A stretch of DNA of 33,986 nt from Prevotella sp. (lineage in GTDB: Bacteria; Bacteroidota; Bacteroidia; Bacteroidales; Bacteroidaceae): positions 1 through 33,986 of the forward strand of contig JAFUST010000009.1 of the NCBI GenBank assembly GCA_017467535.1, given 5' to 3'. Shown here one piece after another: positions 18,511 through 33,986 of the stretch. The position numbers and the translations under genes were made by a program. The notes beneath the pieces were generated by a model that was given only the letters and a program-made list of their open reading frames with translations, was not told the origin of the DNA and did not search any database. Position 1 is the first letter of the stretch. Every line of letters begins with the position of its first letter.

Positions 18511-21500
18511 TTACCTGATGACAACTTTTTTCCTGTCGACGATATAGACCCCCTTCTTCAAATGATGCACGCTCATTCCCGCAGACGCGCCTACCCGTAG
18601 CCTCATTCCCGCTGACGCGCCTACCCGTAGCCTTTGCCCATTGATGTTGTAGACAGAGGAAGAACCGTCTTGCGAAAGGACATGGTTGTCTACGAGCGAG
18701 GGAATGTCGCTATCGGACACTACGGCCGCTATCGTGTAGATATGGCATCCGCTGGTATTCTTTACGTAGATGTCCACCTTGCCGCCTGTGTCGGAGACGC
18801 CGTCGGGCAGCGTCCAGCCACTCCACGTGTAGGTACCCAGGGCATCGGGCGTGTAGTTATCACCTATTCGCACCAGCGAGCCGTTGTCGCTCATGGCATA
18901 AATGCCCACGCCACGCCCCTGGCCGTTGCGGTGCGACTCGACGCTCATGGTGATGTCTGTACCCTCAATGACGTCAGGGATGTAGAAACAATAAGGCGGG
19001 TTGTTACCAATGCCAAGCCAGAGATACTGCTTACCGGCATAGGTGCCAATGTCCGTTGAACCATAGTCGACGGCTATGGCCAGCGAGCGCCCCTGACAGT
19101 AGGCATCGCTGAACATCAGACCTCTCAACTCGCTGATGGGCACGCCGTTGGCTTTCACCTCACCAGCCTGATTATCCTGCAGCCAGAAGCAACGATTGTT
19201 TGCAGCCTCCATCTTGTTCAGGTATTCCACGTCGCTCCATCCTGTCTCATCGCCCATCTCTGCATCAGCAATGAGGTTGTCCATTGTCTGCTGACTCCAG
19301 TTTGTAAAGTCCCATTTGCGTAATACACCTGTGGCCTGTTCGGTACTGTTGCTGCGGCAAGTAACGCTAAAACCGACGGGGACGCGGTCGCCGTGGATGC
19401 CCGTCAAAATGAAGTTGAACGTGTAGTTGCCAGCCTCGTGGAAAGTACCCTTAACGCTGAGTGTGGGATTCTCTTCGCCTTCGATGGTGTATGCAATGTC
19501 GCGTGGCAGTCCGTCGTGCTTCTCGCCGGCCACAGTGTAGCCGTTGTACTCTATATTCTTCACATCCTTGGTGGCGAAAGTCCACTCCACCTGTTCATCC
19601 TCCTTGACCACAAAGCGCCTGCCGTTGTCGGTCATGGTGGGCATATTCAGGTCGGGCAGGTAGTAGCCCAGGTGTGGTGGCTGATTGTAGGCCACGTTCT
19701 GCCAGCAGACCCCCATGCGGTAGGTATGGTCGTGCATCAGCGTTGGTACACGGTATACAGTAGGGATGTCAGTTGAGTAGATGGCAAGACAAGTTTCCAA
19801 GTCGGAAGCCCTGTACAGAATGACCTCTTCGCGCCAGTCACCCAAAATGTCTGCTGAGAGGCACGGTGTGTTTTTCGAGCCATTGCAGGTAGAACTTGGC
19901 CCCAGATCACCGAAAGTAACAAGGCGCGTAGTTCCGCTGCCATTCCACTTGTCAAGTTTATTTCCGTCCAGCAGTTCTTCTTGTAGGTCGCCGTCCCAAT
20001 AAATGCGGAAATTAGTAGACCCCACTTTATCAGATATAGCCTCCCCCGTCAAAGCACTGCGAGCCATCTTGTCACTGCTCCAGAAAAGTGATGCGTGCAC
20101 TCGCGCATCGAAGTGTCCGGCGATGCCCCGACCATTGTCTATGCCTGCAGGTCCGCCTTTCAGGAGGACTTCGCCTGTTTTTGCGTCGTGCAGATCCCAA
20201 GCATAAGTACCTTTTTCTTCGTGAACTTGGTACAATTCCAGACCAGGACGCTCTGGGTTATGGTCGGCTAAATGCATGGCGTCTCCATGACCAAAGCCTG
20301 TAGCATAGAGCAAGGTGCCGTCGTGATCCAGCGCTGCTGCACCCCAGATAATCTCATCCCGCCCATCACCGTCAACATCGGCTACAGAGAGATTGTGGTT
20401 GCCGTTTCCATACATCGTACCGCTACCACCGCCACTCGTGGGAGTCTTGCCGGCCAGCGTCTTAGTCGTGCCGTTGCCGTCAGCATCAAATGTAGTCAGT
20501 CTGTAACTATTTTTCGCAGCATGAGCACTAAACCATTTCTGCTTAAGATGTTGTCCGTCGAAGTCTACTGCCCAAATATAGGCGTAAGTGTAGTATCCGC
20601 GGCTGAAAATGCCACTGGCCGCTTTGTCCGGGCCGTCGAGGTGAGCCACGGCAGCCAGATAACGCTCGCCCCGGTTACCATAACTGGCATAGTCGGTGCG
20701 CCCATTGCGGTCATCCCAGTTGAAGGAGCCCCGCGCTTCTCCACCATAACCTGCGTCACGGTTGGGGTTATAAAATATTGTGTGTATGGCTTCGCCCGTC
20801 TCTCCATTGAAGACCGTCAACCACTCCTGGCCGCCAGTAATCTTACCGTCACCGTTACGATAAATGGTACTGTTGCTTGCATTCCTGATAACGTCCTCGG
20901 TTGCTTTCTGATTGACGTAGTTTCCTTTGCCATCCTTCGTCCCTGGTGCCGTTTTGAGCATCATCTCTGCTCGTCCGTCACCATCGAAGTCATAGACCAT
21001 GAATTGCGTATAATGTGCACCGGCACGAATGTTTGGTCCCAAGTCGATACGCCAGAGAAGAGTACCACTGAGTTTGTAGCAGTCAATAAACACATTGTCT
21101 GTTACACCACCCTGCGAGTTGTCTTTGGCATTAGAAGGGTTCCATTTCACAAAGATTTCGTACTCACCGTCTCCGTCGACATCTCCCACTGAGCAGTCGT
21201 TGGGGTCATACGTTCCGCCATTGGCACCCTTGGCAGGGCGCTGCAGTACCAGTTTTTTGTAGTGTTGTGTCCAAGGCGTGACGACATCGGTGGTATCAAC
21301 AGGGGAACCGTCAACCAGCGTAACGATCTGGTATTTGCTTGATGTGCGACCTCCTGCATCGGTGTAGTTGGTGGCAAAGAGGTCGGTGACCACTGTCTCT
21401 CCGTCGCGCAGGAGGTTGAAGGTGGTAGCGGGGGCGTCGTAGCCCAGCGAGCGCCAACTGACGAACATGCCAGATCCAGATGCCGGCAAAGCAATGAGCC

Positions 21501-21606
21501 CGCGATCGAGATGCTCCATCTGGCTGACGGGCGTGTCCTGTGCTTTGACGGCTGTTGCGGTAACCACAAGGGTTGCCGCAACAGCAATATTAAAACGTAT
21601 GTTCAT
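18511..21606 (-). CDS. Rhamnogalacturonan lyase (PL11 family) with extra C-terminal module
   Basis: This 1031-residue secreted lyase should cleave the rhamnose-galacturonate backbone of rhamnogalacturonan I by beta-elimination. After a signal peptide (about 1-22) comes QMEHLDRGLIALPA and the PL11 propeller (to about residue 630). That propeller has calcium-binding DxDGDG loops: SVGDVDGDGEYEIFVKW, VYDFDGDGRAEMMLKTAPG and SVADVDGDGRDEIIWGAA. Residues about 760-960 are an added beta-rich module (KWDFTNWSQQTMDNLIADAE) also found in the adjacent upstream gene. The C-terminus (NINGQRL, KKGVYIVDRKK) is a Bacteroidetes-type sorting-like tail, interrupted by a duplicated RLRVGASAGM unit. It starts 5 bp after the upstream gene, so the two share an operon. 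Confidence 0.92.
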   Translation of the reverse strand: MNIRFNIAVAATLVVTATAVKAQDTPVSQMEHLDRGLIALPASGSGMFVSWRSLGYDAPATTFNLLRDGETVVTDLFATNYTDAGGRTSSKYQIVTLVDGSPVDTTDVVTPWTQHYKKLVLQRPAKGANGGTYDPNDCSVGDVDGDGEYEIFVKWNPSNAKDNSQGGVTDNVFIDCYKLSGTLLWRIDLGPNIRAGAHYTQFMVYDFDGDGRAEMMLKTAPGTKDGKGNYVNQKATEDVIRNASNSTIYRNGDGKITGGQEWLTVFNGETGEAIHTIFYNPNRDAGYGGEARGSFNWDDRNGRTDYASYGNRGERYLAAVAHLDGPDKAASGIFSRGYYTYAYIWAVDFDGQHLKQKWFSAHAAKNSYRLTTFDADGNGTTKTLAGKTPTSGGGSGTMYGNGNHNLSVADVDGDGRDEIIWGAAALDHDGTLLYATGFGHGDAMHLADHNPERPGLELYQVHEEKGTYAWDLHDAKTGEVLLKGGPAGIDNGRGIAGHFDARVHASLFWSSDKMARSALTGEAISDKVGSTNFRIYWDGDLQEELLDGNKLDKWNGSGTTRLVTFGDLGPSSTCNGSKNTPCLSADILGDWREEVILYRASDLETCLAIYSTDIPTVYRVPTLMHDHTYRMGVCWQNVAYNQPPHLGYYLPDLNMPTMTDNGRRFVVKEDEQVEWTFATKDVKNIEYNGYTVAGEKHDGLPRDIAYTIEGEENPTLSVKGTFHEAGNYTFNFILTGIHGDRVPVGFSVTCRSNSTEQATGVLRKWDFTNWSQQTMDNLIADAEMGDETGWSDVEYLNKMEAANNRCFWLQDNQAGEVKANGVPISELRGLMFSDAYCQGRSLAIAVDYGSTDIGTYAGKQYLWLGIGNNPPYCFYIPDVIEGTDITMSVESHRNGQGRGVGIYAMSDNGSLVRIGDNYTPDALGTYTWSGWTLPDGVSDTGGKVDIYVKNTSGCHIYTIAAVVSDSDIPSLVDNHVLSQDGSSSVYNINGQRLRVGASAGMRLRVGASAGMSVHHLKKGVYIVDRKKVVIR
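18571..18630 (-). repeat. Two tandem 30-bp copies inside the PL11 C-terminal tail
   Basis: Copy 1 (18571-18600) and copy 2 (18601-18630) differ at two positions. They add ten codons per copy, each encoding RLRVGASAGM, between NINGQ and the KKGVYIV tail, and keep the reading frame. Confidence 0.9.
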
Positions 21607-24593: not shown

Positions 24594-25934
24594 ATGAAGA
24601 ACGCTTTCTTGATTATCGCCGTCTGCCTACTGGCAGTTTGCGCACAGCCTACCGTTGCACAGATAGGAACACGATTCCCGTCAGAACGCAAAGTTATTCA
24701 GGATCCTAAGACTGGCGTGAAACTGGTGTTCCTGACCAGCAAGAGTGGAACTGGAGATTCCAAGATCTACCAGACGCATAATCAGTGGACAGCCGATGGG
24801 AAGTGGGTCATATTCCGCTCCAACCGTGTGAAGGGTGAAGCCATGGCCGTCAATGAAGAGACGGGCGACATCGTTCAGGTGACTGAGGGCGGCTATACGG
24901 GCATGCTCTGCGTGGCCCGCAAGTCGATGAATCTTTACATAATGCGTCCGTCAATAGATAAAAAAGGTGTACGCATAGGTATGGAGGTTGTTGAGATTGA
25001 TTTGGAAAAGTTATTTGCCGACTCCGAAGTTGGCAAATTGAAAAAGAAATCAGCCTACGAACGCATCTGCGGCGTCATTCCCGCCGAGATGTGCAGCGAG
25101 GGTGATATGGCACTCGACGGCAGCGAGGCGTTTGTCTATTTCCGCCTTGACAAGGAGTTTGCGCGTAAGTATCCCATCGCCGAACAGATTGCTCCAAACT
25201 TCGGCCCGCGCAAGATGGGTGCCGGACCTGGCGGCATCGGCAAGATGGATCTCGCAACGGGAGTGTCAGAGCCCGTGGTGGCTGTCCATTTCAAGGTAGG
25301 ACATATACAAGGTAATCCATGGCATCCCGGGGAAGTCATCTTCTGTTGGGAGACAGGAGGCAAAGCCCCACAACGCACCTGGATCTGCAATGCTGACGGT
25401 ACAGGCCTGCGCCCCATCTACCGAGAAACGGAACATGACTGGGTGACCCATGAGGCCGTGATCAGCGAAGACGAACTGGTCATTGCCATCATCGGCCACC
25501 GTCCTATCAAAAGGGGCGAACAGCGACAAATAGACGGACTGGAGTCGTTCGCTACTTCAGACGACTGGGGACCTTCGGGTACGAAAGAGTATGCTACGGG
25601 TATTGCCGTTGTCAACATGCGTACACGTGAGTTAACCCTCGAGGGACAGGTGCCGGGCGATAATTTTTGGCATGTGGCAGGTTCTCAGGATGGCCACTGG
25701 GTGGCGGGTGACGACTTTGCTCGGGAACTGTGGCTCATAGACCGACATACCGGTGAACGAATCTTGCTGACGGCTGGCCATAAGACCACTGCCCGCGACC
25801 ATGTACACCCGACATTCAAGCCCGATGGCACTGAGATAGAGATACAGTCGGCCATGCTCAGTGAAGACGGACGCTCCATGAACATCTGCATCGTCCGCCT
25901 GCCGCAACATCTTACGAACAGATATAAGAAATAA
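24594..25934 (+). CDS. Oligogalacturonate lyase-like beta-propeller protein (PL22-like)
   Basis: This 446-residue protein has a signal peptide (about 1-22, ending TVA-QI). It is a seven-bladed TolB/PL22-type propeller: HNQWTADGKWVIFRSNR, RKSMNLYIMRPS, KVGHIQGNPWHPGEVIFCWE, TWICNADGTGLRPIYRET, HDWVTHEAV, and a C-terminal RDHVHPTFKPDGTEIEIQS. The His residues of DHVHP and the preceding HDWVTHE resemble the metal site of PL22 oligogalacturonate lyases. It may release unsaturated uronate from short pectic oligosaccharides in the periplasm, or act as a related uronate lyase. It is first in the operon with GH105 (3-bp gap) and the hybrid regulator, and divergent from PL11. Confidence 0.75.
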   Translation: MKNAFLIIAVCLLAVCAQPTVAQIGTRFPSERKVIQDPKTGVKLVFLTSKSGTGDSKIYQTHNQWTADGKWVIFRSNRVKGEAMAVNEETGDIVQVTEGGYTGMLCVARKSMNLYIMRPSIDKKGVRIGMEVVEIDLEKLFADSEVGKLKKKSAYERICGVIPAEMCSEGDMALDGSEAFVYFRLDKEFARKYPIAEQIAPNFGPRKMGAGPGGIGKMDLATGVSEPVVAVHFKVGHIQGNPWHPGEVIFCWETGGKAPQRTWICNADGTGLRPIYRETEHDWVTHEAVISEDELVIAIIGHRPIKRGEQRQIDGLESFATSDDWGPSGTKEYATGIAVVNMRTRELTLEGQVPGDNFWHVAGSQDGHWVAGDDFARELWLIDRHTGERILLTAGHKTTARDHVHPTFKPDGTEIEIQSAMLSEDGRSMNICIVRLPQHLTNRYKK

Positions 25935-25937
25935 GTC

Positions 25938-27335
25938 ATGAAACGCATTTCATTTATCATTTTTCATTTGATCGCCTGTGTCGCACTGCTTTCGGCACAG
26001 CCGGCCGTGAACGACAGCAACACGCCACTACACCTGATGAAACCGGCTTACCGGGTGGGCTACGGCATACCCACGACAGAAGAAGTAAAGCAGACAACTG
26101 ACCGCGTGCTACGCTACATAGAAAGCGAAACGCCAGCCACGCTCGTCGACAAGAGAACGGGGCGTGAGGTGACCCGACTGAAGGACATCGATGAGAACAC
26201 CCAACTGAAGCAGGGCGGTTTCCGCCTGACCAGTTACGAGTGGGGTGTCACCTACTCAGGTGCGCTGGCTGCATACGAGGCGACGGGTGACGAGGCTTAC
26301 CGCGACTACGTGAAGAAACGCCACCAACTGCTGGCCAGCATCTTCCCACACTTCCAGAAACTTCACAAAGAAGGCAAACCGATTGACGTCAACATTCGGC
26401 GTGTGGTGGATCCCCATGCGCTCGACGATGCAGGAGCCGTGTGCTGTTCGATGATAAAAGCCACGCTGAGCGACAGGGCTGGTGACGGCGGACTGCGCCC
26501 GCTTATTGACAACTACGCAGACTATATAGTGAACAGGGAGTATCGACTGGCGGACGGCACCCTTGCCCGGCTGCGCCCGCAGCGGAACACTTTGTGGCTG
26601 GATGATATGTTTATGGGCATTCCGACGATAGCCTATATGGGCAGAATGACGGGCGAGCAGGAGTACTATGACCAGGCAGCCAAGCAGGTCTTGCAGTTTG
26701 CACAGCGTATGTGGGTTCCTGAGAAGAAACTGTTCCGCCACGGATGGGTGGAAGAGGAGGCGTTCCATCCTGCCTTCTACTGGGGCCGTGCTAACGGCTG
26801 GGCTATCCTGACGATGTGCGAAGTACTGGATGTGTTGCCAGAGAATCATCCAGACCGGCAGCAGATATTAGACCTGTTGCGCCAACACGCCCAGGGACTG
26901 GCCGCCCTGCAGCATCACGATGGATTCTGGCATCAGTTGCTCGACCGTCCCGACACCTATCTGGAAACATCGGCCACTGCCATCTATGCCTACTGCCTGG
27001 CACATGCCGTCAACAAGGGATGGCTCAGTGCCAGGTCTTTTGGCCCCGTGGCACTGTTGGCCTGGCACGCCATCGCATCGAGTGTCAACGAAATGGGGCA
27101 GGTGGAAAATGTGTGTGTGGGCACGGGTATGGGCTTCGATGCCGCTTTCTATGCCTACCGCCCTGTCCACGTGATGGCAGCCCACGGCTACGGCCCCGTT
27201 CTGTGGGCTGGTGCGGAGATCATCAACCTGCTGCGCCGGCAGCATCCGAAACTGAACGACTCGGCTGTGCATTTCTACGATGACGAGGTGCCCACTGACC
27301 AGCCTATATTCAACTACGACGGAAAAATGAGATGA
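25938..27335 (+). CDS. GH105 unsaturated rhamnogalacturonyl/glucuronyl hydrolase
   Basis: This 465-residue exported enzyme has a signal peptide (about 1-20, LLSAQPAVN) and a single (alpha/alpha)6-barrel. Family blocks are RLTSYEWGVTYSGALAAYEA, VVDPHALDDAGAVCCSMIKA (near residue 161, with the catalytic Asp), LWLDDMFMGIPTIAYMGRMT, AFHPAFYWGRANGWAILTMC (near 276) and FWHQLLDRPDTYLETSATA. It hydrolyses the unsaturated uronic acid left at the non-reducing end by PL11/PL22-type lyases, freeing rhamnose-ended oligosaccharides. Its stop overlaps the start of the regulator gene by ATGA, giving translational coupling. Length and motifs are normal for the family. Confidence 0.92.
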   Translation: MKRISFIIFHLIACVALLSAQPAVNDSNTPLHLMKPAYRVGYGIPTTEEVKQTTDRVLRYIESETPATLVDKRTGREVTRLKDIDENTQLKQGGFRLTSYEWGVTYSGALAAYEATGDEAYRDYVKKRHQLLASIFPHFQKLHKEGKPIDVNIRRVVDPHALDDAGAVCCSMIKATLSDRAGDGGLRPLIDNYADYIVNREYRLADGTLARLRPQRNTLWLDDMFMGIPTIAYMGRMTGEQEYYDQAAKQVLQFAQRMWVPEKKLFRHGWVEEEAFHPAFYWGRANGWAILTMCEVLDVLPENHPDRQQILDLLRQHAQGLAALQHHDGFWHQLLDRPDTYLETSATAIYAYCLAHAVNKGWLSARSFGPVALLAWHAIASSVNEMGQVENVCVGTGMGFDAAFYAYRPVHVMAAHGYGPVLWAGAEIINLLRRQHPKLNDSAVHFYDDEVPTDQPIFNYDGKMR

Positions 27336-30300
27336 ACGGTTTCCTGGCCATACTGCTTTTTTCACTGAGCATACTCGGGGGACACGCCTACTCCCATGAA
27401 CGGATAGACGTCTCCAGCGGGCTATCGAACAACCAGGTGCTCTGTCTGGCAACAGACAATGAGGGCTACGTCTGGGTGGGAACGGAGGCCGGACTGAACC
27501 GCACGGGAGCCGGCATCTGTACAAAATTCTACAGGCCACAGGGATGGCAGCACGGGCATAGGGGAAACGGCGACAAGGTGATGTCGCTCTACTACGACAA
27601 GCAGAGCGGGATGCTCTTCGCAGGAACAGAAAGCGGACTGGACATCGTAGATAGTCGGACGGGGACCTACAGGCGGGCCACGGGCGACAGTCTGCTGAAC
27701 TATGGCGTGCAGGACATGGCAACAGACCACAAGGGCGGCGTATGGCTGTTCTACGACAACGGGCAGGTGCAACACGTGGACTGCGGGAGCCTGAGCGTGA
27801 GGGCCCTGCCGACAGAGACGCGAAAGGGTAACCGGAGCGGACTGGACGATGGGAACGGCTGTCTGTACATAGGGCATGGCAATGGCGGCATGAGCATCGT
27901 AGACAGTCGTACGGGCGAGACCCTATGCACGTATGCTCACGACAACGACAATCCAACGAGTATCCCAGGAAACAACGTGAGATGTATCTATCAGGACAGT
28001 CATCGTCGGATTTGGGTAGGCACAGACCAGGGGCTGGCCGTGTTTCATCCCGTCGAGGGTACTTTCCAGGAAATAAGGCAAAAGGACAGTCCGTATAGTG
28101 ACAACGTGTTCGACATCCGGGAAATGTCCGACGGACAACTTTATGTGGCCTGCGACGTGGGAGGCGTCAGTACCGTTGACTGCCACCGGATGGCGTATAC
28201 GGAGCAGCCGCCCTACGCATTGTCATCGCTCAACTCACGCTGCCTGCTGGAAGATCGCTATGGAAACATCTGGATAGGCAGCCATAGCAGCGGCATTGAT
28301 TTCGTGCCGAAGAGGGAGCCGCTGCTCCATCAATTGCCTTACAGGAACGCCCAGGGAGGCAGGCAGGCTGTCTATGCCATTGCTAATGACGGACAAGGGC
28401 AACTATGGGTGAACGGTGAGGATGAAATCAGCCTGTGGCAGGGAATGACGAGGCGGGGCTCGTGGCACATCTCGGCTGCCCGGAACCGGGCTCACTCATA
28501 CGCCAGAAGCATGATGGTGGACAAGAGCGGGCAGGTATGGCTGGGAATGGAGGACGAAGGCGTGATCAGATTTGATCCGCAAAAACATAGATTCGAGAAA
28601 ATAGACATAGGCTATGACTCGCCTGACATACACTGCTTCTTTGAAGACAGGGACGGGAGTGTCTGGATAGGAAGCGAGTTTGGCATCTGCGTATATAAGA
28701 ATGGTGCCGTCAGCCACCGGGAGGACATCGACCGGATGGTCTGCAAGGCCCCTGTCACCAGTTTCGTCAGACTCGGCGAGTCGCTGCTGATGACAACCCA
28801 AGGCTATGGCGTAACGCTGTACGACTGTGATACAGGGACCTACCGACAACTACACTTGAGTGACGGACTGCCAACAGAAAACATCAATCAGGCACTGACG
28901 GATGGGAAAGGCGGCGTCTGGTTGGCCACTAAGAGGGGAATCGTCTTTCTGCCAGATATCAAGAACAAGAAAGACATCGTTTGTTATGACAATAGGCACG
29001 GGCTGGCTGACAATCAGGTGCAAGCCATTGCCCTCGACCGTCAGGGAAGGATTTGGGCCAGCACCTTTACTCACATAGCGTGTCTTGATGGCGAGCAATT
29101 CCACAACTACAACGGCTTTGCCCGCCAGCAGATAGGCGGCTTCGTAACAGGCTCAGTAGCACAAATGCCTGACGGCGGCATCGCCTTTGGATCGTCCAAC
29201 GGCGTTTGCTACGTCAACCCCGATATGAGAGGCGCAGAAAACGATGCTGCCCTGCCCAAAATTGCCGTCTGTAACATCTGGCAGCCCACTGCCGACGGCA
29301 CCGAGGCCATCAGCCTCCTGCCCAACGCGGGAGGACGGATAGAACTCAACTACCAGCAAAACACATTTCAGATAATAACGACGGTTGACAACTACGCTCA
29401 GTTGGGATTTGTGGATATGGCCTACATGATGAAAGGACTGGAGGACAAGTGGTATGACCTGGATGACAAGATGGAAGTCACGTTCCGAAGTCTGCCACCA
29501 GGCAAGTACACCTTTATCCTAAAGGCAAAACTGAAAAACCAAAACTGGGAGGAGGCCCAGGAAACCCGGCTCACGGTCAATATAGCCCCGCCGATCTGGC
29601 GGTCATGGTGGGCATGGATAGTCTATGCGCTGTTGACAACGATTTCAGTATGGTACATCTTCCATGCCTACAAGCGTCATCTGGCATTGCAAAACTCGCT
29701 GGAACTATCACGGCGCGAAAGTCTGCAGAAGCAGGAGTTGAACGAAGAACGCCTGCGATTCTTCACCAACATCACCCATGAACTGCGAACGCCACTGACC
29801 CTCATTCTCGGGCCACTGGAAGATCTTGCCGCAGACAACAGTCTGACGCCAGCGAGCAGGAGGAAGGTGGAAACGATCAACAAGAGTGCTGGGAGACTGC
29901 GCGCCCTGATCAACCAGATACTGGAATTCCGCAAGACGGAGACACAGAACCGACATCTGACCGTTGCACGAGGCGACATCTGCCAGGCAGTCAAGGAAAT
30001 CGTCATGAACTATCGCGAACTGAACCGCAATCCTCTGGTGGAAATCCGCTATCAGCAGCAGGGGCAGCCACCCACGGTGTATTTCGATTCTGAGGTCATC
30101 TCTACCATTCTCAACAACCTACTCTCAAATGCTGTCAAGTATACCGAGCAAGGCAGTATCACGGTTACAGTTGAAGACAAGGACAAAGAGGATCTCCTGA
30201 TTCATGTAGCCGACACGGGCTATGGCATCTCAGCCGAGGCACTGCCCCACATCTTCGACCGCTACTATCAGGCCAAGGGTAGCCACCAGGCATCAGGCAC

Positions 30301-30994
30301 TGGCATTGGGCTTTCGCTTGTAAAAGCACTGGCCGACCTCCACGAGGCCCAAATAGCAGTTCAAAGCGAGGAGGGCAAAGGCTGCGAGTTTGTACTTACG
30401 CTGTCAGTGGCCAACACCTACCCCAACGCATTACACAAGGAAGACAATGGTGAGTACCAATCGTCCGATGGTGAGAACCAACTGGCTGATGGCGAGAACC
30501 AGTCGTCCAAGAAAGACGAGCGTCCACTTCTGTTAGTTGTAGAAGATAATGAAGATATACGCCAATACATCGCCGAATCGCTCTCCGACGACTTCCAGAT
30601 TCTCCAGGCAAGAGATGGACAAGAAGGTTTGGCACTGACTACAGAGAATGTGCCAGACCTGGTGGTGAGTGACATCATGATGCCAAAGATGAACGGCATC
30701 CAAATGACCAAACTGATAAAGGACAACATACAGACCTGTCACATACCAGTCATATTGCTAACAGCCAAGGATACTGACGAAGACAAGGAAGAAGGCTATG
30801 ACAGCGGAGCCGACTCCTATCTGACCAAGCCCTTCACGGCGAAACTGCTGACCAGCCGTATCAGAAACCTGCTTGCCAGCAGAAGGAGGTTGGCTGAACT
30901 ATTGAGTTCGAGCGGTATAGACAATATCCCGTCCAGCACCCCGTCGCCTCAAAGCACCTCTGCCGTCTCGACCGTGAATTCATGCAGCGACTGA
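27332..30994 (+). CDS. Hybrid two-component sensor (periplasmic propellers, histidine kinase, receiver), AraC domain out of frame
   Basis: This 1220-residue membrane protein has a signal-like N-terminus, then about 14 Reg_prop blades (for example GYVWVGTEAGLNR, RRIWVGTDQGLAVF, GSVWIGSEFGICVY) and a Y_Y_Y domain (about 690-750). A membrane helix (about 757-780, AWIVYALLTTISVWYIF) is followed by HisKA with H816 in FFTNITHELRTPLTL, an ATPase with NNLLSNAVKYT, and a receiver with phospho-acceptor D1114 (VVSDIMMPKMNG) and conserved Lys in TKPF. Proteins of this class normally end in an AraC helix-turn-helix in the same chain. Here the frame stops after a Ser/Thr/Pro-rich linker and the AraC part continues in the -1 frame. 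It should sense rhamnogalacturonan oligosaccharides and control this locus. Confidence 0.88.
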   Translation: MNGFLAILLFSLSILGGHAYSHERIDVSSGLSNNQVLCLATDNEGYVWVGTEAGLNRTGAGICTKFYRPQGWQHGHRGNGDKVMSLYYDKQSGMLFAGTESGLDIVDSRTGTYRRATGDSLLNYGVQDMATDHKGGVWLFYDNGQVQHVDCGSLSVRALPTETRKGNRSGLDDGNGCLYIGHGNGGMSIVDSRTGETLCTYAHDNDNPTSIPGNNVRCIYQDSHRRIWVGTDQGLAVFHPVEGTFQEIRQKDSPYSDNVFDIREMSDGQLYVACDVGGVSTVDCHRMAYTEQPPYALSSLNSRCLLEDRYGNIWIGSHSSGIDFVPKREPLLHQLPYRNAQGGRQAVYAIANDGQGQLWVNGEDEISLWQGMTRRGSWHISAARNRAHSYARSMMVDKSGQVWLGMEDEGVIRFDPQKHRFEKIDIGYDSPDIHCFFEDRDGSVWIGSEFGICVYKNGAVSHREDIDRMVCKAPVTSFVRLGESLLMTTQGYGVTLYDCDTGTYRQLHLSDGLPTENINQALTDGKGGVWLATKRGIVFLPDIKNKKDIVCYDNRHGLADNQVQAIALDRQGRIWASTFTHIACLDGEQFHNYNGFARQQIGGFVTGSVAQMPDGGIAFGSSNGVCYVNPDMRGAENDAALPKIAVCNIWQPTADGTEAISLLPNAGGRIELNYQQNTFQIITTVDNYAQLGFVDMAYMMKGLEDKWYDLDDKMEVTFRSLPPGKYTFILKAKLKNQNWEEAQETRLTVNIAPPIWRSWWAWIVYALLTTISVWYIFHAYKRHLALQNSLELSRRESLQKQELNEERLRFFTNITHELRTPLTLILGPLEDLAADNSLTPASRRKVETINKSAGRLRALINQILEFRKTETQNRHLTVARGDICQAVKEIVMNYRELNRNPLVEIRYQQQGQPPTVYFDSEVISTILNNLLSNAVKYTEQGSITVTVEDKDKEDLLIHVADTGYGISAEALPHIFDRYYQAKGSHQASGTGIGLSLVKALADLHEAQIAVQSEEGKGCEFVLTLSVANTYPNALHKEDNGEYQSSDGENQLADGENQSSKKDERPLLLVVEDNEDIRQYIAESLSDDFQILQARDGQEGLALTTENVPDLVVSDIMMPKMNGIQMTKLIKDNIQTCHIPVILLTAKDTDEDKEEGYDSGADSYLTKPFTAKLLTSRIRNLLASRRRLAELLSSSGIDNIPSSTPSPQSTSAVSTVNSCSD
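30446..30508 (+). repeat. Three tandem 21-bp units in the kinase-receiver linker
   Basis: Units 30446-30466, 30467-30487 and 30488-30508 encode NGEYQSS, DGENQLA and DGENQSS. They keep frame and lengthen the flexible linker between the ATPase domain and the receiver. The units are imperfect, so some time has passed since duplication. Confidence 0.85.
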
Positions 30995-31302
30995 ATAGCA
31001 CCATCGAAGAGCATATCATGCAGACCGACATCGATGTGCCTTTCCTGACCGACAAGATGGCCATGAGTCACAGCACCTTCTATCGTAAGGTCAAGGCCTT
31101 GACAGGTCTTACTGCCAAGGAATATGTACGCAAACAAAAACTTCGCCACTGCTATAAACTACTTGAGAGCGGTGATTACAATGTGACTGAGGCGGCCATG
31201 ATGACAGGCTTCAACCAAATGGCACATTTCCGGGAAGTATTCAAAAAGGAATTTGGCATACTGCCATCCGACCTTACAAAAGGCAAGGTCCAGGGGACAT
31301 GA
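30982..31302 (+). CDS. AraC-family DNA-binding domain, separated from the hybrid regulator by a frameshift
   Basis: This 106-residue open frame is the helix-turn-helix output domain of a hybrid two-component regulator. It reads TDKMAMSHSTFYRKVKALTG, TAKEYVRKQKLRHCYKLL and AAMMTGFNQMAHFREVFKKE, ending FGILPSDLTKG. It overlaps the preceding gene's stop by 13 bp and lies in the -1 frame. Codons just upstream of the ATG in this frame (30961-30981) read CRLDREF, and LDREFMQRLN is the usual family linker. The domain was therefore probably fused to the receiver and became separated by a one-base deletion or equivalent. It could still be made as a separate protein by re-initiation at ATG 30982, or the sequence may contain an error. 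Confidence 0.8.
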   Translation: MQRLNSTIEEHIMQTDIDVPFLTDKMAMSHSTFYRKVKALTGLTAKEYVRKQKLRHCYKLLESGDYNVTEAAMMTGFNQMAHFREVFKKEFGILPSDLTKGKVQGT

Positions 31303-31341
31303 TGCTTGTCTTTCTCCCCTGTCGCTTTCTCTTTCATACTG

Positions 31342-31349
31342 CAAAGATA
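31342..31349 (-). promoter_or_regulatory. Possible antisense promoter downstream of the AraC domain
   Basis: The minus strand reads TATCTTTG and points into the end of the AraC coding region. A TTG half-box at 31372-31374 lies 22 bp upstream. No convincing gene follows it, so any product would be an antisense RNA, or the box is a chance match. Confidence 0.3.
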
Positions 31350-31375
31350 CAAAAAAGAAATCAGGCGAATGCAAG

Positions 31376-31410
31376 TTTTTGCCCGACAATTTTTCATCGT
31401 CGGGCAAAAA
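31376..31410. terminator. Bidirectional terminator between the regulator and the convergent gene
   Basis: TTTTTGCCCGAC (31376-31387) and GTCGGGCAAAAA (31399-31410) form a perfect 12-bp stem with an 11-nt loop. The T and A runs within the stem suit termination from both sides. Confidence 0.8.
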
Positions 31411-31413
31411 TGA

Positions 31414-32739
31414 TTATTTCAGTTTGCTGATGCTGCGCACCTTCTTAGTGGCCTTGTCGAAGAAAACACAGGCATAGGGACGGCCAAGCTCATTGTAGAC
31501 CCAGGTGTACATATCTTTCTCCTCGCCGTGGCCGGTGGGCTCGCCGAGGGCCAACTTCACCTCATTTTCCGTGAAGCCCTTGCGTACAATGCTCTTCTGC
31601 ACATCGCTGAAGTTGGCCTGACGCACGCCGGGCATCGACAGCGGGTTGCCCCATGCAAAGAGGCTGGTGAACAGATCCTCACGCTGGCCGTCGATGTCGC
31701 CGGCCACATTCGTGCTCTGGAAGGTCACCTGCTTGGTATAGGTTCTGCCAGTGCTTTCGCCCGTGAGTGTCATCTTGACATAGTGTGTGCCACGCTGAGC
31801 GCGGATGTCCTTGATGGTGAAAGTTGACAGGCGTGCCACACGGGTGCGCTGGCCATCCTGGGCAAACATCTCCGTATTGTAGAGCGTGAACACCTTCTTG
31901 CCTACATACTGACGATAGCCGCCACTGGCTGCCAAACTGTCACCCGGCAGTTCGAAAGCACCCGTGAAGGTGTGGATCTTCATGTTGCTAATGTCGAACT
32001 CATCGTCGCGCATACCGCTATTGGTACGGCTGATGGCCACGTTCTGATAGAACTCTCGGCCCTTGCTGTCGGCCACGATGATCTTCACGGGGAAACTGCG
32101 GGTGCCTACACCGACGGCCACCACCTTCACCTCCGTACCCTCAGGCACATCGAGTATCGTCTTGAAGCCGTCGCCATCCACCTCGGTGTCTACATAATAT
32201 TCGTCGGCCATGGTGAACAGCACCTTGTCGCGGAACAAGTCGATGGCCGTGTCCACATCGCCCAGATAGGCCAGCGTGGGAACGCCGAACTTGCCGTAGC
32301 AGTAGTCATCAAACGATGCCGTGGGAATCTCGTAGTAGTAAGCCTTGCCGTCGTCCTCGCAGACAAAGTTGATATGCTCGTGCAGGCCGCCCGTGTTCTC
32401 GTGGCCCTTGTAGACCATGATCTTGTGGCGCAGCGTACGGCTGCTGACCATCTGTCCCGTGGCAGCGTCGGCAAAGGTCTTGATGACCATGTCCTTTTTC
32501 TCAGGAATCACCATGAAGCGCATCCCATCTTTCCAGTCACACAGACTGACATAGCGGAAGTAGCGTCCCAGGAAGTCCTGAGGTTCCTCCTGTACCTTCT
32601 CCCCACCCTGACCGTTCTCAGCCTGCTCTGCCACGGCAGCCTTTGCGGCTCCCTTGGTCTTCACGATGTACTTGTTTCCTTGTGCCTGACCCGTCAGCAC
32701 CATCAGGGCCGCAGCGGCGACAATCATCAGTTTCTTCAT
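31414..32739 (-). CDS. Secreted protein of unknown function with BamE/SmpA-like C-terminal segment
   Basis: This protein has 441 residues from ATG 32739. An in-frame ATG at 32766 lies inside the -7 box and is rejected, while the chosen start gives a clear signal peptide (MKKLMIVAAAALMVLTG, then QAQ-G). It is followed by an Ala/Glu/Gln-rich low-complexity stretch (about 30-55). The middle (about 55-350) is beta-rich, with DWKDGMRFMVIPEKKDMV, HKIMVYKGHENTGGLHEH and ASFDDYCYGKFGVPTLAYLGD, and is not recognised. The end (GFTENEVKLALGEPTGHGEE, then MYTWVYN and ACVFF) resembles the SmpA/BamE-type fold. It probably acts in the periplasm or at the outer membrane. It is a single gene divergent from dnaK. 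Confidence 0.65.
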   Translation of the reverse strand: MKKLMIVAAAALMVLTGQAQGNKYIVKTKGAAKAAVAEQAENGQGGEKVQEEPQDFLGRYFRYVSLCDWKDGMRFMVIPEKKDMVIKTFADAATGQMVSSRTLRHKIMVYKGHENTGGLHEHINFVCEDDGKAYYYEIPTASFDDYCYGKFGVPTLAYLGDVDTAIDLFRDKVLFTMADEYYVDTEVDGDGFKTILDVPEGTEVKVVAVGVGTRSFPVKIIVADSKGREFYQNVAISRTNSGMRDDEFDISNMKIHTFTGAFELPGDSLAASGGYRQYVGKKVFTLYNTEMFAQDGQRTRVARLSTFTIKDIRAQRGTHYVKMTLTGESTGRTYTKQVTFQSTNVAGDIDGQREDLFTSLFAWGNPLSMPGVRQANFSDVQKSIVRKGFTENEVKLALGEPTGHGEEKDMYTWVYNELGRPYACVFFDKATKKVRSISKLK

Positions 32740-32856: not shown

Positions 32857-32906
32857 ACCTACTTAGCGATAAACATTAGTAAACAACAATTAAAAAATAT
32901 ACAATT

Positions 32907-33986
32907 ATGGGAAAGATTATTGGTATTGACCTGGGTACAACTAACAGTTGTGTTGCCGTGTTCGAAGGCAACGAGCCCGTTGTGATTGCAAACAGTGAAG
33001 GCAAGCGTACAACGCCTTCTGTGGTAGGTTTCGTCGAGGGTGGCGAGCGCAAGATTGGCGACCCCGCCAAGCGTCAGGCTATCACCAACCCGAAGAACAC
33101 CGTCTACTCTATCAAGCGTTTCATGGGTGAGACTTGGCAGCAGACCGAGAAGGAAATCTCGCGCGTACCTTTCTCCGTAGTCAACGAGGGTGGCTATCCC
33201 CGTGTAGACATCGACGGCCGTAAGTACACGCCGCAGGAGATTTCGGCTATGGTGCTCCAGAAGATGAAGAAGACCGCTGAGGACTATCTGGGACAGGAGG
33301 TGACCGATGCCGTCATCACCGTGCCTGCCTATTTCAGCGACTCTCAGCGTCAGGCCACGAAAGAGGCTGGTCAGATTGCCGGTCTGAACGTGCGTCGTAT
33401 TGTCAACGAGCCTACGGCTGCTGCTCTGGCCTATGGTATCGACAAGACAAACAAGGACATGAAGATTGCCGTCTTCGACCTCGGTGGCGGTACTTTCGAT
33501 ATCTCTATCCTCGACTTCGGCGGTGGCGTGTTCGAGGTACTCTCTACAAATGGTGACACCCACCTGGGTGGTGACGACTTCGACCAGGTGATCATCGACT
33601 GGCTGGTGCAGGAGTTCAAAAACGACGAGGGTGCCGACCTGAAGAGCGACCCGATGGCCATGCAGCGTCTGAAGGAGGCTGCCGAGAAGGCTAAGATCGA
33701 ACTGTCTTCTACGACATCTACGGAGATCAACCTCCCCTATATCATGCCTGTTGCCGGCGTGCCCAAGCACTTGGTGAAGACGCTGACCCGCGCTAAGTTC
33801 GAGCAGTTGGCCCACAACCTGATTCAGGCTTGTCTCGTGCCTTGCCAGAACGCCATCCGCGATGCAGGCATCTCTACTTCCGATATCGACGAGGTCATCC
33901 TCGTGGGCGGTTCGAGCCGTATCCCCGCTGTGCAGACCCTCGTGAAGAACTACATCGGCAAGGAGCCCAGCAAGGGTGTCAACCCC
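32907..33986 (+). CDS. dnaK: Chaperone DnaK (Hsp70), 3' part missing
   Basis: The frame is open from ATG 32907 to the last base, giving 360 residues, a little over half of a protein of about 635. It covers almost the whole nucleotide-binding domain: [13 protein letters not shown] (phosphate 1), [62 protein letters not shown] (phosphate 2), [12 protein letters not shown] and [15 protein letters not shown] (adenosine motif). It is an ATP-dependent cytoplasmic chaperone of protein folding and heat shock. The substrate-binding domain lies beyond the window. Its upstream region holds a sigma-54-type sequence and a palindrome. Confidence 0.98.

Follow-up and report, generated by a model that had tools for sequence, protein, structure and literature searches.

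According to the domain description in PMC3878776, a hybrid two-component system (HTCS) unites a sensor, a kinase, a receiver and an AraC domain in a single protein. In the window, the whole stretch of 33,986 nucleotides of a Prevotella sp. contig that was analyzed, a gene of this type has its receiver in one reading frame and its AraC domain in another. The question is whether these two pieces constitute a working split system, a switch, a case of programmed frameshifting or a gene whose frame has been lost, either in the organism or in the assembled sequence.

Two reading frames in one regulator gene

The first piece (27332..30994, forward strand) extends over 1220 codons from ATG 27332 to the TGA at 30992-30994 and matches the Pfam families Reg_prop, Y_Y_Y, HisKA, HATPase_c and Response_reg. 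Its N-terminus consists of a Reg_prop/Y_Y_Y sensor (PF07494, E 2.6e-40; PF07495, E 4.2e-13), which is probably periplasmic. The histidine kinase (PF00512, PF02518) contains THELRTP, NNLLSNAVKY, DTGYGI and GTGIGL, which we take to be its H, N and G motifs. In the CheY-like receiver (PF00072; residues 1068-1178, encoded by 30533..30865 of the forward strand) EDN, DIMMP, LLTAKD and LTKPF are intact; EDN, DIMMP and LTKPF presumably represent the acidic pocket and the conserved lysine. The second piece (30982..31302, forward strand) comprises 106 codons from ATG 30982 and encodes an AraC-type DNA-binding domain (HTH_18, E 4e-20; also HTH_AraC). Its frame, −1 with respect to the long one, remains open over 30898-31302, follows an in-frame stop at 30895-30897 and has its first ATG at 30982. 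Both frames are thus open together only along the 97 bases from 30898 to 30994 (forward strand), and the stop of the first piece and the start of the second overlap by 13 bases (30982-30994). Coordinates and Pfam matches agree in this with a preliminary description of the locus, which had placed the stop of the long frame at 30994, a complete AraC domain in the −1 frame and the shared opening at 30898-30994.

The second frame is more than a chance opening, since its residues 11-128 share 86% identity with the top match from another genome of the genus in a protein search. The residues LDREF, encoded in that frame upstream of ATG 30982, had been assigned to the normal fusion protein, and rightly so, as the closest relatives read RLDREFMERLN in a single frame. 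All the domains of an HTCS are therefore present, with the kinase, receiver and AraC motifs examined kept, but the C-terminal AraC domain is not on the same polypeptide, and the locus is a disrupted HTCS gene and not a normal member of the class. It differs from the HTCS of Bacteroidota in that its AraC domain is not in the frame of the receiver. The order of propeller-type sensor, kinase, receiver and AraC domain is otherwise the one reported in PMC3878776 for the Bacteroides thetaiotaomicron regulators HTCS_Rgu-1 (BT4111/BT4124) and HTCS_Rgu-2 (BT4178/BT4182), a likeness of layout that does not amount to established orthology.

Related loci

Relatives were sought by a DNA search of 149 genomes, including the window's own, of which 58 matched; by a protein search at E 1e-20 against an even sample of a larger set of genomes, in which 109 of 398 genomes of the genus (the own one again included) matched; and by a scan of genome contigs, which yielded 55 loci. 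No relative was found in a scan of viral contigs. Most of the relatives are uncultured Prevotella or other Bacteroidales, and many appear to come from ruminant guts. The 84 loci compared consist of 29 from other genomes among the protein-search matches listed and all 55 from the contig scan, two sets that overlap. A receiver match lay close to the AraC match in 76 of them, representing 52 distinct AraC stretches, and in every one of the 76 both domains were in one open frame. The remaining eight are not informative on frame continuity: L099 runs off its contig before reaching the receiver, L108-L110 yielded no match of a receiver to the query used, and L115-L118 lack a receiver match as well, their frames upstream of the AraC match not exceeding 285 codons. 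Among the protein-search matches listed, some have one stop inside the aligned part, and several others lie in frames too short for a full HTCS; the AraC match of the window is the sole one there in an open frame of less than 366 aa. The 45 loci taken as orthologues (L064-L107 and L114) have some neighbouring genes in common with the window, and their frame is continuous in 44, the exception being the truncated L099. An alignment of homologous regulators, which the preliminary description had asked for, therefore leaves the window alone broken; together with the published domain description (PMC3878776), the orthologues also uphold its premise that these regulators normally act as one polypeptide.

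The own genome gave a similar picture. The assembly (2.39 Mb in 108 contigs, estimated to be 79% complete, the window being contig 66) has 22 places encoding an AraC domain, 21 of them above the family cut-off. When searched with profiles of the two domains derived from the orthologues, five of these loci showed both receiver and AraC, 14 AraC alone and three neither; four of the five receiver-AraC hybrids are in one frame and that of the window is not. Since all 76 comparable loci and the four other hybrids of the genome are continuous, the break appears to be a singleton within the loci examined. The possibility that the genome has another, intact copy was also considered and rejected, the only full-length match in this incomplete assembly being the window itself.

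Singleton breaks have been described on a large scale. According to the GeneTack survey (PMC3711429), singleton frame breaks with homology support are sequencing errors or recent indels, those confirmed by BLASTp are expected to be errors and not genuine indels, and frameshifts are more frequent at the 3' ends of genes. The break in the window resembles the singleton frameshifted genes of that survey in being isolated, confirmed by homology and close to the 3' end. The survey differs from the present case in having used complete genomes, and the words 'two-component' and 'response regulator' do not occur in its main text. Among the papers listed by literature searches on HTCS and frameshifts there was none on a split HTCS, which does not prove that no such paper exists.

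A working split system would require that translation ends at 30994 and re-initiates at ATG 30982, the free 106-residue AraC protein then acting as an independent output component for the kinase-receiver in the membrane. The 13-base overlap of stop and start, with a complete AraC domain past the ATG, is consistent with such a system and would also suit translational coupling, the second start being near the first stop; however, the arrangement is absent from all 76 comparable loci. At the position of ATG 30982 the 44 orthologues have L (17), I (15), M (6), F (5) or V (1), and the ATG is thus an internal Met with no sign of having been shaped as a start. Re-initiation, one of the options raised earlier, is hence formally possible by virtue of the overlap, although the ATG is not a new start.

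Constraint on the AraC piece bears on the same point. The relative closest by sensor among six compared is L066 (Prevotella sp. Tb.RUG.168), with identities of 81% in the kinase, 79% in the receiver and 87% in the AraC domain. Against it, the AraC piece has a dN of 0.083 and a dS of 1.20, and its differences by codon position are 13/4/42; synonymous sites are near saturation in the comparisons of the window with its relatives, several values being undefined or unreliable, so that dN/dS is evidence of constraint but gives no date for the break. A wider comparison of the window with 44 orthologues considered the columns in which at least 95% of the other sequences agree; here the window departs from the conserved residue at 2 of 104 kinase columns (rank 15 of 45), 3 of 67 receiver columns (rank 4 of 45) and 1 of 56 AraC columns (rank 21 of 45). 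From the pairwise values, the codon-position pattern and the single deviation, no decay is visible in the AraC piece. In a comparison of five sequences, few in number and carrying no significance test, amino-acid changes versus synonymous codons unique to the window were 13/14 in the receiver, 5/34 in the kinase and 4/13 in the AraC domain. The receiver value could be a hint of slightly relaxed constraint after a real, not brand-new break, the effect in the wider column comparison being mild.

The constraint on the AraC piece would favour a split system, but it may entirely predate the break, and by its Pfam domain matches the small piece has no receiver left on it. A working split system is consequently judged improbable. 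It is still more doubtful that the break is real and has been kept, giving a two-protein phosphorelay in which a re-initiated free AraC domain is under the non-covalent control of the membrane-bound receiver.

The comparison of orthologues also brought out an uneven identity of the sensor half (27332-29671), which reaches 72% with L066, 66% with L084 and only 45% with L064 and L065, while the kinase, receiver and AraC parts of the window are similarly close to all four. This suggests, as far as identities between sequences go, that sensors have been swapped among orthologous HTCS genes.

Local sequence at the break

Agreement with the relatives follows the long frame as far as approximately 30937 (NIPSS) and is taken up again by the −1 frame at roughly 30958-30967 (RLDREF), so that in the alignments the linker zone holding the break spans 30938..30966 of the forward strand, all these limits being set by eye. 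The receiver-AraC linker is poorly conserved, and both its length and its sequence vary between orthologues.

Programmed −1 ribosomal frameshifting, which would produce the fusion in a fixed fraction, could be accommodated by the location of the AraC domain in the −1 frame and by the 97-base overlap. However, an in-frame scan found no X_XXY_YYZ heptamer in 30898-30994, as the preliminary description had already remarked; the entire long frame has two, at 27562 and 27823. No comparable locus has such an arrangement either, and with neither a slippery heptamer in the overlap nor a conserved frame change the probability of this mechanism is close to nil.

A phase-variable on/off switch based on slipped-strand mispairing in the linker would agree with the fact that one frame is kept in the relatives and not in this genome, and regulators of sugar use would be plausible targets. 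Such a switch would need the break to lie in a homopolymer or other short repeat, and no such tract was found: the longest homopolymer in the overlap is of 4 bases, the repeat finder listed no direct-repeat family over 30400-31420, and the only array found by Tandem Repeats Finder in 30300-31100 (30447-30508, period 21), one that the repeat finder had missed, is about 430 bases upstream of the break and has a unit that is a multiple of three. A switch of this kind is thus highly improbable. Of the possibilities entertained in the preliminary description, a recent indel or a sequencing error is favoured by the isolation of the break among 76 continuous loci, and the population-level switch, deprived of a tract, is not. 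DNA inversion was likewise rejected: of the two inverted-repeat pairs listed for 30400-31420, one is a hairpin resembling a terminator and the other a small palindrome.

The array at 30447-30508 deserves a description of its own. Its 21-base unit (approximately GGTGAGNACCAATCGTCCGAT) is present in three degenerate copies, which code for a section of the linker between kinase and receiver (DGEYQSSDGENQLADGENQSS-like). When two units were used as a pattern, 6 of 120 genomes of the genus matched, and none did with the pattern reversed; the sites lie in ORFs, where two different frames are used, in one case right after a signal-peptide-like start, and also in stretches devoid of a long ORF. A one-unit pattern with 2 mismatches gave 11 matches in the own genome versus 5 when reversed, which is no clear enrichment. 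The repeat resembles a mobile minisatellite of frame-preserving length; a literature search on it found nothing.

The hairpin is a 15-base inverted repeat with a 5-base loop, located by the repeat finder between convergent genes (31376..31410, unstranded). It looks like a bidirectional terminator, and it was not among the matches of a terminator consensus scan. The sequence around it (31358-31405) recurs twice more in the genome, at L002 and L003, with an identity of 92-93% along 40-48 bases. Elsewhere in the window, a Pfam match to PF10712 ('NAD-specific glutamate dehydrogenase') at 32859-33815 of the reverse strand probably arises from dnaK read in antisense, since the forward strand at 32907-33986 matches DnaK over all 360 residues.

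The probable regulated locus and the expected consequence of the break

The start of the HTCS gene is overlapped by a glycosyl hydrolase family 88 type gene (25938..27335, forward strand; Glyco_hydro_88, E 3.5e-92; BetGalacBglBAgro below cut-off), likely encoding an unsaturated rhamnogalacturonyl hydrolase. A gene for a family 11 rhamnogalacturonan lyase (18511..21606, reverse strand; RGL11_C, E 2.8e-164) is likely part of the regulated locus. Further neighbours match rhamnose isomerase above the cut-off, rhamnulokinase (514.8 bits, cut-off 527.95) and RhaT (365.3 bits, cut-off 369) slightly below it, and a class II aldolase. Because of these rhamnose and rhamnogalacturonan genes next to it, the HTCS probably governs rhamnogalacturonan use, and in adjoining rhamnogalacturonan-degrading genes it is like the HTCS_Rgu of B. 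thetaiotaomicron as presented in PMC3878776. The stretch 24594-25934 encodes a 446-aa protein weakly like oligogalacturonate lyase (PDB 3pe7, E 3.9e-5), with no match in Pfam at E 1e-5 or in NCBIfam at E 1e-3; local matches to it, of 83-94% identity, adjoin the HTCS in 14 of the 45 orthologue loci.

The explanation preferred, with a probability of roughly 0.9, is that of an ordinary Prevotella-type HTCS, probably devoted to rhamnogalacturonan use, whose frame was lost by one small non-programmed indel in an unconserved linker, this being a recent real mutation or an error of the assembly consensus at about even odds. The lack of homopolymers of more than 4 bases in the overlap makes a typical assembly error less easy. 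The indel would throw the AraC domain into the −1 frame. The sensor-kinase-receiver piece, as printed, would still be made, and from its domains it should autophosphorylate and pass the phosphate to the receiver, the DNA-binding domain being no longer attached. Since a kinase-receiver piece would then be left without DNA-binding domain, induction of the neighbouring locus is expected to be abolished or strongly diminished.

Programmed frameshifting, a phase switch and an evolved two-protein system found no positive support beyond the stop-start overlap, and nothing in the evidence demands a new type of system. If a kept split were true, it would represent a regression from the fused architecture of HTCS. 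If the break is an artefact or a private lesion, it is an issue of annotation, in which gene callers would turn one regulator into a hybrid kinase without its DNA-binding part and an orphan AraC protein.
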